Shown here one piece after another: positions 3,694 to 37,807 of a DNA stretch of 39,047 nt (its first letter is position 1; every line of letters begins with the position of its first letter). The position numbers and the translations under genes were made by a program. Under the pieces are notes generated by a model. It made no database searches. It was not told the origin of the DNA and worked only from the letters and a program-made list of their open reading frames with translations. Source of the stretch: a virus; IMG/VR virus record IMGVR_UViG_3300042564_000263, positions 1 through 39,047 of that record; one strand, written 5' to 3'.

Positions 3694-4467
3694 TTATGAA
3701 TATACGAAGGTTACAAGGTCACCGTTAGCGTCATAGCTGAAGGTTTTAACCAAGTCGATGCCTTCTGGAGTACTTCCTGACAATGTGAGGCTAATCAAGT
3801 CACCGTTAGCGTCATACGCCAAGGTCTTAATTATCCCGTTCAGATAAGTGATGGTAACCAAGTCACCGTTAGCGTCATAAGCCAAAGTACCGCCAGCAGA
3901 AGCTAAGTTCTTACTGACAGTCTCGAAGGTGTTGTAGATGAAGGTCTGTTTAAGCTCTTCAGTGCTGTAACCAGCCCATGAGGAGACAGAAACATTTGTG
4001 TTGCTCCCTGTACCAGCCTCTAAAAGAGGCCCTGTATCGATTTCTCGACCATCGGAGAGCACACAAACTAAACTTCCATCGGCAGCGACATAGACATCAA
4101 CGATGGATACACCGTCTTTGCCATCTACACCGTCTACACCATCTTTACCGTTGATTCCATCACGACCATCAAGGCCATCACGTCCATCTTTACCAATCTT
4201 ACCGTCTTTACCGTCCCTTCCCATAGGCCCCGGCTGCCTGACGTAGCTGTAAACCTCTTTCAAGGCATTATCTACATCAGTTTTGTGGTCATTAATGGTC
4301 TGGGCGATGACTTCAACGGCTGCTTCGTAGGTATCTAGCTCTTCTTGTACCTGTTTAGCCTGCTTACGAAGCTGGATAGAGGTCTCAACTTGAGCCAAAA
4401 GTGCTAATTGTTCATCTTCTGACAGATCACCAGCAGCAATCCGTTCAATGAGACCTACTGTATCCAT
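3694..4467 (-). CDS. Collagen-like fibre protein with YDANGDL repeats
   Basis: This 257-residue protein has three parts. Residues 1-78 are acidic, helical and probably coiled coil. Residues 80-119 are an unbroken collagen-type run of Gly-X-Y triplets (GPM GRD GKD GKI and so on, about 13 triplets). The C-terminal head includes three copies of a YDANGDL motif near residues 197-204, 218-225 and 245-252. Collagen-like stretches in phage proteins form trimeric stalks, and the repeats suggest a compact beta repeat that may bind ions or a receptor. It lies directly downstream of portal with abutting coordinates, so it is probably a head or tail fibre. Receptor binding is inference. Confidence 0.75.
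   Translation of the reverse strand: MDTVGLIERIAAGDLSEDEQLALLAQVETSIQLRKQAKQVQEELDTYEAAVEVIAQTINDHKTDVDNALKEVYSYVRQPGPMGRDGKDGKIGKDGRDGLDGRDGINGKDGVDGVDGKDGVSIVDVYVAADGSLVCVLSDGREIDTGPLLEAGTGSNTNVSVSSWAGYSTEELKQTFIYNTFETVSKNLASAGGTLAYDANGDLVTITYLNGIIKTLAYDANGDLISLTLSGSTPEGIDLVKTFSYDANGDLVTFVYS
3718..3879 (-). repeat. Three copies of an 18-bp coding direct repeat
   Basis: The 18-mer GTCACCGTTAGCGTCATA (plus-strand sense) occurs at 3718-3735, 3799-3816 and 3862-3879. All three copies encode the YDANGDL motif of the fibre head. The bases are identical across synonymous positions, which points to recent duplication or gene conversion rather than only protein-level conservation. Confidence 0.85.
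4111..4230 (-). repeat. Collagen-type Gly-X-Y coding repeat
   Basis: This segment encodes residues 80-119 of the fibre protein as consecutive Gly-X-Y triplets, mostly G-K/R/V-D. At the DNA level it is a degenerate 9-base periodicity. Such repeats are prone to slippage and so to length variation between relatives. Confidence 0.8.
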
Positions 4468-7767: not shown

Positions 7768-8162
7768 TATTCTGCATCCTTAAAGTCTACATCCATGACA
7801 TCGTCAGTAGTCTCAATCTTGGGGGCACCCATAGACGAGATATTAATTGAGATTTGTGGCATACCACCACCAGCATTCTTAGCTGCATCGAACATAGACA
7901 CAGGCAAGATACGATCAACGGCTAACTTCATAGCAGCCATCTGTCCGGGATGTCCATCGGTCATGGCAATCTCTACCATCTTGTCTAGGATACGACTACC
8001 GCCCGTAGCCAGTAATCGTTCCTTGAACTCTTGCAACCGAGCAGCGTCACCAGCGGGACGACCTACCTTACCTTTTGTACGGTCTTTAACGGCCTGTAAG
8101 TCGGTCTTAGGAGGTCTACCCTTACCACGTAGCTTAGGTGCTACAACTGTCTCTGTTGTCAT
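7767..8162 (-). CDS. terS: Probable terminase small subunit
   Basis: This 131-residue protein lies immediately upstream of the large terminase. The N-terminus has two basic, AT-hook-like segments (LRGKGRPPKTD near residues 11-21 and KVGRPAGD near 32-39). A helical middle (GGSRILDKMVEIAMTDGHPGQMAAMKLAVDRILP) and an acidic tail ending DVMDVDFKDAE follow. DNA recognition by an N-terminal basic region and contact with the large subunit by the tail fit a packaging-initiation protein. The position is the main argument, since I see no diagnostic motif. Its ribosome site (AAGGAAGCCA) and start lie inside the end of the HNH gene (29-base overlap), which ties its translation to that gene. Confidence 0.65.
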   Translation of the reverse strand: MTTETVVAPKLRGKGRPPKTDLQAVKDRTKGKVGRPAGDAARLQEFKERLLATGGSRILDKMVEIAMTDGHPGQMAAMKLAVDRILPVSMFDAAKNAGGGMPQISINISSMGAPKIETTDDVMDVDFKDAE

Positions 8163-9006
8163 TGGCTTCCTTTTTCATTCTCTGGTGCTTATTGGCCTCA
8201 TGGTGTATTTTGACGTTTTTCTTTGTACATTCCACACACCAACTAGATCGACCGTCTTTCGCTCTGTTGTTTATATAGAAATCCGTAACAGGTTTTTCTT
8301 CGCCACAGTGGCTGCATTTCTTAACACCCACAGTGGTTCTTTTCTGTTCAAGATAAGAAGCAACAATATCTGCCTTACGTATCTGCTCCTCTTGTCGTTT
8401 CTTGAGCAGCCGTGCTTCGATACCGTTAAACACCTCTTCAAAGTCCAGCTCCATGAACTCAGCAATTAGTCGATGCTCATCTGCTGTTCCGTCATTCTTA
8501 ATCCGGTTTGCTCTCCAAGAGATGATCATTACATTGTCTTTGTTGTATCCTTCACCTGCGCGTACCTGATCAAAAGTAGGAGAATTCTCCTTACGACCAG
8601 AACCAGAGTAGTCCAAAGGAATACCAAGGATAGGACAATTGTCAGGCCACACAACATCATCGAACTCAAGACTAAAAGGAGTCCCGTTAGCAGCAGCTGA
8701 GGCCTTTTTAGCCATGTATTTCTTATAAGCCAAAGACCACTTGTCCGAACCTTTGTCCTCTGCGCCAAAATAACCAGCCTTTGCGCTTATTCTTGAAAAG
8801 ACCTCTTGCTCGGAATACTCTGCTTGTTTTTCTTTCCAAGTTTCCCACAGACCTAACTTCTTGATACGTTGACGAACACGCTCACGGCTAACAGAATACC
8901 CAATAGCTTCTAGGTCTTTTTGAATTCCAACTTGAGTCTTCATCTGAAGGATACCCTCAGTGATGACCTTCTTAATTTGTGCTTGCTTTTCTTTACTAAG
9001 TTTCAT
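8134..9006 (-). CDS. HNH/His-Me-type endonuclease with C-terminal zinc ribbon
   Basis: This 290-residue protein has three parts. Residues ~1-60 contain an HTH-like DNA-binding stretch (GYSVSRERVRQRIKKLG). The middle, ~119-175, carries CPILGIPLDYSG, then SPTFDQV and GYNKDNVMIISWRANRIKND. This is the pattern of phage His-Me finger endonucleases of the type D-R/Q-x...GY...NV...S...N..K. Residues ~233-262 form a zinc ribbon (CSHC...CVEC). Such genes are often free-standing homing endonucleases. It sits directly beside terminase, a common homing target, and overlaps the small-subunit start by 29 bases. The first catalytic His is replaced by Asp, as in this subfamily. Activity is not shown. Confidence 0.75.
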   Translation of the reverse strand: MKLSKEKQAQIKKVITEGILQMKTQVGIQKDLEAIGYSVSRERVRQRIKKLGLWETWKEKQAEYSEQEVFSRISAKAGYFGAEDKGSDKWSLAYKKYMAKKASAAANGTPFSLEFDDVVWPDNCPILGIPLDYSGSGRKENSPTFDQVRAGEGYNKDNVMIISWRANRIKNDGTADEHRLIAEFMELDFEEVFNGIEARLLKKRQEEQIRKADIVASYLEQKRTTVGVKKCSHCGEEKPVTDFYINNRAKDGRSSWCVECTKKNVKIHHEANKHQRMKKEANDNRDSCST

Positions 9007-9419
9007 TTGCTGTCCTTCTTCATGTTACGGCGTTCCTTGCACAACTTAGCGTTGCACTTACGACATTCCGGGTAGTAACCTGTGTAAGTCCCCTTTTTGA
9101 GACCAAACTCAGCTACATCCTTAATTTCGTGGCAGTGTGAGCATTCTTTCAAACCCTCGTCAAGTAGACGATCAATCTCTGCTTTTCGGGTTGCTACCTT
9201 CTTGGTAGCTTCCTTCTTCTTACCCCGAGAAGAGGTAGGCTCAAAGTTTGGGCTTGCTTCAGTTAAAGCTCGTTCTGCTTCTAGGAACTCCTGCACATGG
9301 CAGGTACGACAAACAAAAGAAAACCCATCGACATCATGCAGTTTTGACCGAATGAAGTTGTTCTTGTTTACTTCTTTTGTCTTCAAACACTTAGGACATT
9401 GCTTATCACTCATAGACAC
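9003..9419 (-). CDS. Protein with two zinc ribbons (138 aa)
   Basis: There are two Cys4 ribbons, CPKC...CRTC near residues 8-40 and CSHC...CRKC near 92-119, joined by a basic-acidic helical linker (SSRGKKKEATKKVATRKAEI). The second ribbon (KECSHCHEIKDVAEF) closely resembles the ribbon at the C-terminus of the adjacent endonuclease (KKCSHCGEEKPVTDF), so the two genes share a domain. It overlaps the endonuclease by four bases (ATGA) and is the first gene after the leftward promoter. It probably binds DNA or RNA, perhaps as a late regulator or a targeting partner for the nuclease. That role is inference. Confidence 0.7.
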   Translation of the reverse strand: MSMSDKQCPKCLKTKEVNKNNFIRSKLHDVDGFSFVCRTCHVQEFLEAERALTEASPNFEPTSSRGKKKEATKKVATRKAEIDRLLDEGLKECSHCHEIKDVAEFGLKKGTYTGYYPECRKCNAKLCKERRNMKKDSK

Positions 9420-18067: not shown

Positions 18068-18484
18068 ATGGATAACAAACCAGTCAAGGTAGCAGGCGAA
18101 CTCTTCTGGGCTAACTGGATGAAAGAGTTCAACACAAAGTTCAATGAGGACAACACCAAGTACGAATGTACCGTTGGTATGCTCTCAGACAAGGCTTGTG
18201 AGGCTCTGAAGGAACTCGGTATTGTCATCAAGAACAAACCTGAGATGGGTAACTACATCGTTGGTAAGAGTAAGTTCTTGTTTGAGCCTGTGGACGCTGA
18301 AGGTAATCCTGTAGCTATCGAGAAGATTGGTAACGGTACTAAGGTGACAGCTCTGGTGGGTTCGTATAAGCATAAAATGTCGTCGAAATACGGTGCAGCG
18401 CCTAGCATTAGTAAAATTATTGTAACCGATCTTGTGGTTTATGGCGGTAGTGTTGAAGGTAATGACGATGATGACATCCTTTAA
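18068..18484 (+). CDS. Single-stranded DNA-binding protein (gp2.5-like)
   Basis: This 138-residue protein sits between DNA polymerase and exonuclease. It has an OB-type strand pattern (TKYECTVGMLS, YIVGKSKFLFEPVD, GNGTKVTALVGSY) and a strongly acidic C-terminal tail (EGNDDDDIL). Acidic tails are the hallmark of T7 gp2.5 and bacterial SSBs, where they recruit polymerase and helicase. T7 gp2.5 ends in Phe; here Ile-Leu close the tail. The ribosome site GAAGGAAATTAAATC precedes the ATG. The call combines tail, size and position. Confidence 0.75.
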   Translation: MDNKPVKVAGELFWANWMKEFNTKFNEDNTKYECTVGMLSDKACEALKELGIVIKNKPEMGNYIVGKSKFLFEPVDAEGNPVAIEKIGNGTKVTALVGSYKHKMSSKYGAAPSISKIIVTDLVVYGGSVEGNDDDDIL

Positions 18485-18932
18485 CAAGGTGTCGGTAGAG
18501 GAGCTTCGGCTCCTTTATCGTTACGATGAAGAAACAGGTAAACTATTCTATGTCGCTTCTGATAAGGAAGTAGGCTATGATAACGGGTTCGGATATCTTC
18601 GAACAAGTATCAAGAACAAGAAAATAGTTGTACACCGTCTCATCTGGCTCTTGCAATATGGTTATCTCCCTGATAAGGATTTAGACCACATCAACGGAAA
18701 CAGAAAAGACAACAGGCTTGTGAATCTTCGGTTAGCTACTCGTGCTGAAAACTTACAGAATCAGACGACAGCTAAAGGTTTTCACTGGTCGCGTGTTGCC
18801 AACAGGTGGTGTGCTTCTATGCGAGATAACTACAAGAAGATTCATCTTGGTTATTTTGATACTGAACTAGACGCGAGGGCTGCTTATATGTCTGCTAAGA
18901 GAGAACGGCATCCTTTTGCTTTTACGACATGA
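18468..18932 (+). CDS. HNH homing endonuclease with AP2-like domain
   Basis: The start was set at the tandem ATGs 18468/18471, inside the end of SSB. The N-terminal part contains a strand-rich segment and the HNH core: VVHRLIWLLQYGYLP, then DLDHINGNRKDNRLVNLRLAT with catalytic His in LDHING and the two Asn. The C-terminus (GFHWSRVANRWCASM ... HLGYFDTELDARAAY) is an AP2-type DNA-binding domain, common in phage homing nucleases. Overlapping SSB on one side and exonuclease on the other, it looks like a free-standing mobile intruder in the replication operon. Confidence 0.88.
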   Translation: MMTSFNKVSVEELRLLYRYDEETGKLFYVASDKEVGYDNGFGYLRTSIKNKKIVVHRLIWLLQYGYLPDKDLDHINGNRKDNRLVNLRLATRAENLQNQTTAKGFHWSRVANRWCASMRDNYKKIHLGYFDTELDARAAYMSAKRERHPFAFTT

Positions 18933-22702: not shown

Positions 22703-23113
22703 ATGCCACATGCTGATCCTGAAGTAAAGAAACAGTACTTTAAAGAGTACTACCGTAAACGGAAGGCTGAACTAGACCAGTACAAGAAAGAATGGATTGC
22801 ACAGAATCCGGACAAACCTACTGAGTACAGCAAGAAGTATAATGATAAGACCAAGACTAAACGTAGTGAGTACCAAAGGAAGCACCTGTATGGTTTGTCT
22901 CCTGAAGACCTTGCACGTATGGTTGACGAGCAGAACAACGAGTGTGCTCTGTGCTTTAGGAGTTTTGAGGAAGCTAAGATATTCGTAGATCATTGCCATT
23001 CAACAGGTAACGTGCGTGGTCTACTTTGTCCTTCCTGCAACACTGCTTTGGGACTTATCAAAGATGACACTGGATGGCTCAATCGAGCTAAGACATATTT
23101 AACGGAGAAATAA
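22703..23113 (+). CDS. Endonuclease VII-family HNH nuclease
   Basis: The N-terminal half is very basic and helical (KEYYRKRKAELDQYKKEW). The catalytic half has the endonuclease VII pattern: YGLSPEDLARM, zinc Cys C81/C84 (CALC), FVDHCHSTGNVRGLLCPSCNTALG with D96-H97-H99 and C109/C112, then DD and YL. T4 endonuclease VII resolves junctions, but small versions like this often act as homing endonucleases. It stands just upstream of RNR, a frequent homing target, and shares one base with its start. Confidence 0.88.
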   Translation: MPHADPEVKKQYFKEYYRKRKAELDQYKKEWIAQNPDKPTEYSKKYNDKTKTKRSEYQRKHLYGLSPEDLARMVDEQNNECALCFRSFEEAKIFVDHCHSTGNVRGLLCPSCNTALGLIKDDTGWLNRAKTYLTEK

Positions 23114-25029: not shown

Positions 25030-25037
25030 GTAACAAA

Positions 25038-25065
25038 GGAGCCTCTTTAGGGAGGCTTCTGTTTT
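25038..25065 (+). terminator. Intrinsic terminator after RNR
   Basis: GGAGCCTC and GAGGCTTC pair (eight base pairs, one G-T) around TTTAGG, followed by TGTTTT. It lies between RNR and phoH and may give partial read-through into phoH, for which I see no separate promoter. Confidence 0.7.
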
Positions 25066-25081
25066 GATAAAGGGAGAACTA

Positions 25082-25831
25082 ATGGCAAGTAAACAGATTA
25101 TGAACAGAGCTATCCCTGCAAAGGAATTAACTCCTCGTGAGAAGGTAAACAATAGCTTGAAGTTGAAGCTGGATGACATGACTGTTATCAAGCCTAAGAC
25201 TGAGAAGCAGATGGACTTCTTCGAGGCATACCAAGCCTCTAACTACTTCATGGCTTTGCACGGTGTAGCTGGTACAGGTAAGACATACATTGCCTTGTAC
25301 AAAGCCTTGGAAGAGGCTATGGATCGTAACAATCCCTTCAACAAGGTGACTATTATCCGTAGTAGTGTCCAGAGCCGTGACATGGGCTTCTTACCCGGCG
25401 ATGCAGATGAGAAGATGGAGGTGTACATTCAACCTTATCGACAGATCTGTAGTGACCTGTTCAAGCGTAAGGATGCTTGGGATCGGCTGGTCGAGCAAGG
25501 ACATATTGAGTTTGTGTCTACCTCGTTCATTCGAGGTACTACTTTCAGTAACAGTATCATTGTTGTGGATGAGGTGCAAAACATGACCTTTGAAGAGCTT
25601 GATACCATCATTACCCGTGTTGGTGACAAGTCTAAGATCATCTTCTGCGGGGATTACAGGCAGACTGATTTGAAGAAGAAGGATGACAAGTCAGGTATCT
25701 TGAAGTTCTTTGACATTGCAGGCTTGATGAAAGAGTTTGTACGTATCGAGTTCTACATTGATGACATTGTTCGTAGCTCTTTGGTTAAGAACTATATTAT
25801 TGCCCGTGTAAAATATGAGGATGGTGTATGA
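25082..25831 (+). CDS. phoH: PhoH-like ATPase
   Basis: ATG 25082 is chosen because GGGAG precedes it; an in-frame TTG at 25064 falls in the terminator tail. The 249-residue protein has Walker A GVAGTGKT at 61-68, IIRSSVQSRDMGFLPG near 90-105, Walker B IIVVDEVQNM at 158-167 and a late GDYRQTDLKKKDDKSG. PhoH-like proteins are P-loop ATPases related to helicase cores, common in marine and freshwater phages. The link to phosphate starvation is uncertain and an RNA-related role is proposed. It is coupled by four bases to the ClpP-like gene. Confidence 0.92.
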   Translation: MASKQIMNRAIPAKELTPREKVNNSLKLKLDDMTVIKPKTEKQMDFFEAYQASNYFMALHGVAGTGKTYIALYKALEEAMDRNNPFNKVTIIRSSVQSRDMGFLPGDADEKMEVYIQPYRQICSDLFKRKDAWDRLVEQGHIEFVSTSFIRGTTFSNSIIVVDEVQNMTFEELDTIITRVGDKSKIIFCGDYRQTDLKKKDDKSGILKFFDIAGLMKEFVRIEFYIDDIVRSSLVKNYIIARVKYEDGV

Positions 25832-26451
25832 GTAAAGCTAACAACGACGAAGAAATCTTGATGATGATGCCCGAGCAGAAAGGTCTTATCCGTACCATCT
25901 CTCAGCAGATGAATACTCACTTGGTATTCTTGGATGAAGATATTACTTCTCCGGGAAACTACCGTGATGTTATTCACTGTTTGGCTACATGTGGTGAGAA
26001 TGACAATGTTAACATCTTGATTAACAGTTCAGGTGGACGTACCGACAGTGCGTGGGCTATTATCGAGGCTATGAAGGGTTGCCGTGGAGATGTCTCGGTG
26101 ACCGTCTTAGGTGCAGCCTATTCAGCAGCTTCTATGATTGCTTGTATGGCAGATGAGTGCTACATAGCTGACAGTGCGGAATTCATGCTGCACACAGCTC
26201 ATTATGGTTCCATTGGTACTGTTCCAAATGTGCAGGGACAAACGGAATTTGCTACGAGGCAGATCAACAAACTGTTAGATAAAGCTTATACAGGGTTCCT
26301 GACTCCTAAGGAGCTGGAGGAGTTAAAGAATGGAAAAGAATTCTGGTATGACTCTGAGGAGGCAGGTAAGCGAATGACTCGTCGTTATAAATATCTCAGT
26401 GGATTGAGTAAACCGCCTAAGGTTAAGAAGGTGAAGGAAACTGAAGAGTAA
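25828..26451 (+). CDS. ClpP-like serine protease
   Basis: This 207-residue protein has ClpP-fold motifs: INSSGG (65-70, compare ClpP INSPGG, the oxyanion loop), AASM at 100-103 with nucleophile S102, and MLH with H122. ClpP-like phage proteins usually act as head-maturation proteases beside portal and capsid. Here the gene ends the early operon, far from capsid, coupled to phoH. The C-terminus is basic then acidic (KPPKVKKVKETEE). It could process the head, but position suggests an early role such as degrading host proteins or joining host Clp ATPases. Confidence 0.88.
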   Translation: MSKANNDEEILMMMPEQKGLIRTISQQMNTHLVFLDEDITSPGNYRDVIHCLATCGENDNVNILINSSGGRTDSAWAIIEAMKGCRGDVSVTVLGAAYSAASMIACMADECYIADSAEFMLHTAHYGSIGTVPNVQGQTEFATRQINKLLDKAYTGFLTPKELEELKNGKEFWYDSEEAGKRMTRRYKYLSGLSKPPKVKKVKETEE

Positions 26452-26457
26452 ATGAAA

Positions 26458-26489
26458 AAGCCCGTATGAGCGTCAACTCATACGGGCTT
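26458..26489. terminator. Bidirectional terminator between convergent operons
   Basis: A perfect 13-bp stem, AAGCCCGTATGAG / CTCATACGGGCTT, encloses loop CGTCAA. It is followed by CTTTGTTT on the plus strand and by a TTTTTCATT run on the minus strand. It stops the early rightward operon after the ClpP-like gene and the leftward structural operon after the holin. Confidence 0.95.
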
Positions 26490-26497
26490 CTTTGTTT

Positions 26498-36848: not shown

Positions 36849-37772
36849 TTACGCTGGCACAGCCAAGGCAACAGCCGAGAAGTCACGCAGTTCAGCAGCA
36901 CCGAACAGAGTGTCAGCAGTCAACAATGTACCCAAGTACTCTTGTTTGTACTGCGACTGAGTGCGAACACCCTTCTGCTCAACGAACACTGCGAAGTCAC
37001 GGTGACCCATCAGTGCGATACGGGTAGCAGTGGAACCGCTAGTGGTATCAGCGTTGGTGGTGACATACACGGGGATACCGTACACGTTACCAATTTCACC
37101 TGTACGGATGGTGTTACCACGACCGGCTTCACCAACGAAGGCTTGCTCGGTAAAGCGGTTGATACCCATCAAGGTGTTACGTGTGGAAGGAGGAACGATC
37201 AGGAAACGACCATCCATAGGCACATCGTTGTCGTCCAGACGCTGAATGGTGCGGCGGATAGCAGCATCAGTCAAAGCACCAACGCCAGTGTTAGCACCAG
37301 CCACATAAGCGGTAGTACCATCAGCACCAGACAGAGCGCCGGAGTAAGCGGAAGTACCGCCACCACCGTTAACGCTACGGCCCAGTTCCAAGATGAAGCT
37401 GTCCACTTTACGAGCCAAGGCATAGCCCATGTCATCAGTGTAGAACTGACGCATAGAAGCCAGAGCTTGTGCTTCCACGATGTCTTCGATCAGAACAGAG
37501 GCTTCCCAGTGTTGGTTGATCTGCACCAGAGTCTCGGTAGCAGTGTCAGTGTTGAGCACCACTTGAGTCTGAGCAACCTTCTGGTTAGCCGACATACGAC
37601 CGGGTTTAGGCAAGTGGACGGTATCGCCCTTCTTACCAACGAAGTTCATCTTCTTGATGAGGTTAGCTGCGACCAAGTTCTTCTTGTATGTGGCGATAAT
37701 TTCGTCAGACCATACTTCGGGGATAAACTTGTCAGCAGTTGTAATTGTTTGATGTCCAGTACCTAAAGGCAT
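36849..37772 (-). CDS. Major capsid protein
   Basis: ATG 37772 was chosen for the GGAG site six bases before it; an in-frame TTG at 37784 lacks one. The 307-residue protein has typical coat features: N-terminal KFIPEVWSDEIIATYKKNLV, a long spine helix around FYTDDMGYALARKVDSFILE, and the A-domain segment GRFLIVPPSTRNTLMGINRF followed by IGNVYGIPVYVTTNAD. The end is FGAAELRDFSAVALAVPA. An HK97-type fold is expected. It follows the scaffold gene and precedes a strong hairpin. Confidence 0.88.
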   Translation of the reverse strand: MPLGTGHQTITTADKFIPEVWSDEIIATYKKNLVAANLIKKMNFVGKKGDTVHLPKPGRMSANQKVAQTQVVLNTDTATETLVQINQHWEASVLIEDIVEAQALASMRQFYTDDMGYALARKVDSFILELGRSVNGGGGTSAYSGALSGADGTTAYVAGANTGVGALTDAAIRRTIQRLDDNDVPMDGRFLIVPPSTRNTLMGINRFTEQAFVGEAGRGNTIRTGEIGNVYGIPVYVTTNADTTSGSTATRIALMGHRDFAVFVEQKGVRTQSQYKQEYLGTLLTADTLFGAAELRDFSAVALAVPA

Positions 37773-37807
37773 AATATACTCCAATAATTTCTAAATTGAT
37801 TAATAGT

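Follow-up and report, generated by a model that had tools for sequence, protein, structure and literature searches.

Across the sampled phage genomes, a gene for a ClpP-like protein lies next to phoH far more often than expected by chance. The stretch of DNA in which we analysed this pair (the window) comprises 39,047 bases of a virus record, corresponding to a genome of podovirus size (39 kb). With moderate confidence, we propose that the ClpP-like protein is an in-cell peptidase without a role in the head, which would be motor-free or guided by an adaptor and co-transcribed with an RNA-acting PhoH; here, we infer its activity, ring assembly, timing and substrates.

The phoH-clpP locus and its conservation

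The + strand of the window contains a replication operon that encodes a primase-helicase, a family A DNA polymerase, an exonuclease, endonuclease I, Thy1, MazG, a phosphoesterase, endonuclease VII and a ribonucleotide reductase. Its last two genes are phoH and, in the final position, clpP. The phoH gene (25082..25831, + strand) encodes a PhoH-family ATPase of 249 aa that is SF1-like and carries the Walker A motif GVAGTGKT (PF02562, 3.3e-47; PHROG 170, 7.8e-82; best PDB match 3b85, 2.4e-26). The PhoH ATPase domain is common to this protein, to the Corynebacterium PhoH (PDB 3b85) and to PhoH2, whereas the N-terminal PIN domain of PhoH2 is absent from the window protein. The clpP-like gene (25828..26451, + strand) encodes a ClpP-fold serine peptidase of 207 aa (PF00574, CLP_protease, 1.3e-15), which is assigned to PHROG 1827, annotated as 'ATP-dependent protease' in the category other. 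The stop of phoH and the start of clpP overlap by the four bases ATGA (25828..25831, + strand). A preliminary description of this DNA had placed the ClpP-like gene after phoH at the end of an operon, with a four-base coupling and about 10 kb from the capsid gene, and we find the same arrangement. The capsid gene (36849-37784) is located on the opposite strand at a distance of 10.4 kb from clpP.

A strong, bidirectional hairpin that resembles a terminator (26455..26492) separates the + operon from the convergent lysis/structural operon, and a strong hairpin was found 3' of clpP in 69 of 85 relatives. Another terminator-like hairpin (25037..25060, + strand) follows the reductase gene and precedes phoH; it is not conserved and is peculiar to the window genome. 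Since the relatives lack it, read-through into phoH is likely, and we did not retain the idea of a separate phoH-clpP transcript that starts behind this hairpin. It is only the position in the operon that suggests an early reading of the two genes. When compared to relatives, the median dN/dS is about 0.09 for clpP, where synonymous sites are near saturation, and about 0.05 for phoH. Both genes are thus under purifying selection. Elsewhere in the window, nuclease genes of the HNH or endonuclease VII type are dispersed (22703-23113, 18432-18932 and 8134-9419), and a protein of collagen-like repeats that also has an RHS-type repeat (3694-4467, - strand) adjoins the portal gene.

To estimate the conservation of the pair, viral contigs were scanned with single proteins; no stretch of the alignment was conserved enough for an alignment-based scan. 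Among 98 unique IMG/VR relatives, 93 had an informative upstream flank, and phoH was found directly upstream of clpP in 92 of these. The two genes overlap or are separated by at most 60 nt in 70 of the 92 unique loci, and in the other 22 loci 160-870 nt are inserted, in several cases as an HNH-type gene. Precisely at the junction of phoH and clpP, insertions of HNH-type and other small ORFs recur (loci L087, L104, L136, L149 and L037).

In the sampled isolate records, a PhoH above the cut-off was detected in 18 of 19. For 14 of the 18, clpP follows downstream in equal orientation at a distance of at most 1.5 kb, compared to a chance expectation of about 0.7% per genome; these counts refer to sampled hits in non-independent records that represent about eight lineages of different morphotype. 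The genes are linked in ICP1, Barba, KIL1, Vequintavirinae, Acinetobacter and Curvibacter phages as well as in the window podovirus, with T5-like and N4-like genomes as unlinked exceptions, where phoH and clpP are 10-30 kb apart. Conservation of the pair across phages had been proposed as a test in the preliminary description, with an unconserved pairing as evidence against its reading. As the pairing is conserved, this objection falls away. In the Vibrio phages K470 and RYC, the PhoH partner is about 461 aa long and PhoH2-like, with a PIN-like N-terminal extension (L061, 618-2006; L071, 1334-2719). Both genes are listed in phage papers (PMC5964084, PMC6715854), and we found no published analysis of the pair itself among the open-access papers searched.

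Fold, active site and family of the ClpP-like protein

A single-chain AlphaFold model of the ClpP-like protein, based on 25 aligned viral sequences, has a mean pLDDT of 82 and a pTM of 0.73. It matches 1,020 PDB entries at E<=0.001, and all among the matches listed are ClpP. Against several bacterial ClpPs, we observed Z scores of about 19 and an rmsd of 2.4 over 153 residues. Judged by this model, the protein has a genuine ClpP fold, including a handle helix that is of near-normal length.

The S-S-G-G loop, which had been described as intact, consists of S67, S68, G69 and G70. Its oxyanion-loop glycines Gly69-Gly70 (codons at 26032..26037, + strand) are invariant in 21 diverse and 86 close sequences. 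The catalytic residues had been given as Ser102 and His122. The histidine (codon at 26191..26193, + strand) is invariant in the diverse and the close-relative alignments and is retained, whereas Ser102 as nucleophile is ruled out by the alignment, in which position 102 varies between S, T, C and G. The predicted nucleophile is Ser99 (codon at 26122..26124, + strand), because it corresponds to E. coli Ser97 and does not vary; this was observed in alignments with solved ClpPs, with 86 close relatives, and with a set of 18 diverse phage relatives plus E. coli ClpP. Together with Ser99 and His122, the glycines G69, G70 and G127 are invariant across lineages that share 20-35% identity. From the alignment with a solved ClpP, Glu171 (codon at 26338..26340, + strand) is predicted as the third residue of the triad, a position that is occupied by Asp in cellular ClpP (E. 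coli Asp171). Of 86 close relatives, 85 have glutamate there; distant relatives have D or E with a few cases of Q or N. The replacement of Asp by Glu could reduce peptidase activity and counts, with the Q or N of some relatives, against the reading as an active peptidase.

The best PHROG match of the protein is PHROG 1827 (1.7e-47), followed by head proteases at 3.2e-29. A search for close relatives in bacterial genomes found none, and PADLOC did not match the ClpP-like protein, while its matches to PhoH were helicase-domain cross-matches only. The ClpP-like protein belongs to PHROG 1827, a known phage family that has been little studied, and it is related by descent to the clan of ClpP-type head proteases. 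With tblastn, relatives from PHROG 1827 were found as ICP1 ORF211, Barba19A gp081, KIL1 gp31 and gp41 of the T5-like phage Spc35. They share the same set of motifs, and most of those sampled have a PhoH gene just upstream; however, their genomes are 75-160 kb in size compared to 39 kb for the window genome, and the proteins of ICP1, CR8 and RYC have a C-terminal extension that the window protein lacks. When compared to bacterial ClpP (MEROPS S14), the fold, the Ser and His, the Gly-Gly oxyanion loop and a handle-like helix are shared, whereas the phage protein has Glu in place of the triad Asp and a polar docking pocket, and is encoded in a genome without a Clp ATPase.

Head maturation and the host Clp system

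The similarity to head proteases raises the question whether the ClpP-like protein is a head maturation protease that is encoded apart from the capsid, which we consider quite unlikely. Many head proteases are found among its sequence relatives (PHROG 1684, 94 and 2976; NF045542), in other phages annotated head proteases of ClpP fold adjoin capsid or terminase genes, and no other protease of the S49 or S78 type was found in the window genome. In addition, the cyanophage Mic1 transcribes a Clp protease late, in one cluster with its structural genes (PMC11237433), which would count against a function outside the head if that protease is homologous to the window protein. ClpP-related head proteases (NF045542; PHROG 94, 133 and 1684) belong to the same clan and show the second-best sequence similarity to the window protein. 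However, the window gene is neither located beside portal or capsid genes nor fused to a scaffold, and its best NCBIfam match, NF045542 ('head maturation protease, ClpP-related'), reaches 73.7 bits and is thus below the cut-off of 120.

Furthermore, the capsid of the window genome is of a type that probably does not need such a protease. The solved relatives of this capsid include T7-like and cyanophage capsids, and the phages A-4L, Pf-WMP3, HTVC011P and P-SCSP2 have the same capsid family but no ClpP. The window capsid has a short N-arm like the capsids of these four phages and no N-terminal pro-domain, and a separate gene occupies the scaffold position beside it. Five relatives that encode the ClpP-like protein carry another head-type protease: three are T5-like, with an S78 prohead protease, and the other two, Barba19A and an Acinetobacter record, have an S49 protease, which in Barba19A is found between portal and capsid. 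In the close relatives examined, clpP follows reductase or replication genes and is away from the head genes. The authors of the Barba study likewise placed the CLP_protease beside phoH in a host-interaction module, with a second peptidase among the head genes (PMC6715854), and most of the identified virion proteins of the Campylobacter phage IBB_35 showed no processing according to its authors, although it encodes a ClpP (PMC3322345). The lack of ClpP in phages with the same capsid, the missing pro-domain, the separate proteases and the NCBIfam score thus make a head role unlikely, and the ClpP-like protein probably plays no part in shell assembly.

A protein that acts inside the cell might instead dock to host ClpX or ClpA, or combine with host ClpP in mixed double rings, and thereby redirect or poison host ClpXP. 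The full ClpP fold with its handle helix is consistent with this, and other phages do subvert host Clp: SPO1 modulates ClpCP via an adaptor-like protein (PMC6873191), and jumbo phages carry ClpS adaptors (PMC7824862). A search for Clp ATPases (PF10431), for which the control was positive, found none in the window record and 24 other genomes; an ATPase of the host may be used instead. The E. coli ClpP residues Y60, Y62, F82, I90, F112 and L114, which are among those that form the hydrophobic pocket for the IGF loop of the ATPase, correspond to Y60N, Y62L, F82G, I90T, F112Y and L114A in the window protein, and these positions are mostly polar across the family. With a polar pocket throughout the family, canonical docking of host Clp ATPases on the phage ring via the IGF loop appears unlikely from the alignment. 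Mixed rings with host ClpP are conceivable, and we rate an action through the host Clp system as a whole as unlikely. The preliminary description had suggested a partnership with host Clp ATPases, which in its usual form is not favoured by these residues.

PhoH as possible partner and the proposed function

The preliminary description had further suggested that the ClpP-like protein may act with PhoH, the two being an ATPase-protease pair. In such a machine, PhoH would serve as the unfoldase, and the conserved adjacency and order of the genes together with their frequent translational overlap would fit this. We nevertheless find it very unlikely. PhoH is an ATPase of the RNA-helicase type and not an AAA+ unfoldase, and the two genes can be separated, be it by the HNH genes or small ORFs in 22 of the 92 unique loci or by the 10-30 kb in T5-like and N4-like genomes. 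A clade without phoH also has an intact clpP; its contigs reach 34.6 kb and are possibly incomplete. The P. aeruginosa phage SW_PA2862_14_24 has kept clpP but has no full PhoH. In a sub-clade (L157, L159, L160 and L161), phoH is absent and clpP directly follows the ribonucleotide reductase gene, which represents a natural deletion of phoH. Moreover, the PhoH of Barba5S is only 32% identical to that of Barba19A, whereas the adjoining ClpP is identical over the aligned part. The swapped phoH segment ends exactly at the junction to clpP (L176, 1746-3238 in Barba5S; L062, 2704-4226 in Barba19A). Across 15 phages, the protein distances of PhoH and ClpP show no positive correlation (rho -0.23). PhoH is thus probably not the motor of the ClpP-like peptidase.

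The exchange of PhoH alleles independently of clpP and the uncorrelated distances could also be explained if phoH and clpP were mere neighbours without functional relation that are co-inherited in a mobile block of replication and metabolism genes. The homing-type HNH genes in and around the pair are in line with this explanation. However, the same-order adjacency occurs in about eight sampled lineages of different morphotypes, and an exchanged PhoH is still found at the same spot beside clpP. We therefore regard mere co-inheritance as somewhat unlikely. This constant position of a swapped PhoH speaks for a common pathway more than for a common complex.

The reading that we prefer is that of a non-head peptidase that acts in the infected cell. 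A serine peptidase with the predicted triad Ser99-His122-Glu171 would be expressed from the operon for replication and host takeover, where it is translationally coupled to phoH. It would most likely assemble into a ClpP-like ring chamber, which may degrade or trim peptides or unstructured proteins of the host or the phage and might do so motor-free or with the help of a non-canonical adaptor. As its partner in the operon, PhoH would act at the same stage of infection, such that RNA and protein turnover would occur together during takeover. An action of the peptidase on host proteins is possible, and a review suggests that phage ClpP may target host proteins (PMC7824862).

The pair resembles a takeover cassette that has received little study, rather than a new type of machine. 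A broader and more speculative reading, which we hold to be improbable at present, is that phoH-clpP is a widespread two-gene takeover cassette in which RNA remodelling by PhoH and a motor-free or adaptor-driven ClpP chamber would reshape the host transcriptome and proteome early in infection; ClpP proteins with a Glu triad and without a docking pocket would then constitute a distinct functional class. In many phages, ClpP-like genes carry the label 'ATP-dependent protease' or 'head maturation protease', and neither label suits the PHROG 1827 branch well because there is no ATPase, no docking pocket and no head module. In this branch, clpP recurs beside phoH, which is a common auxiliary gene of phages. 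With model relatives among ICP1, T5-like, Pseudomonas and Rheinheimera phages, both genes are directly testable.
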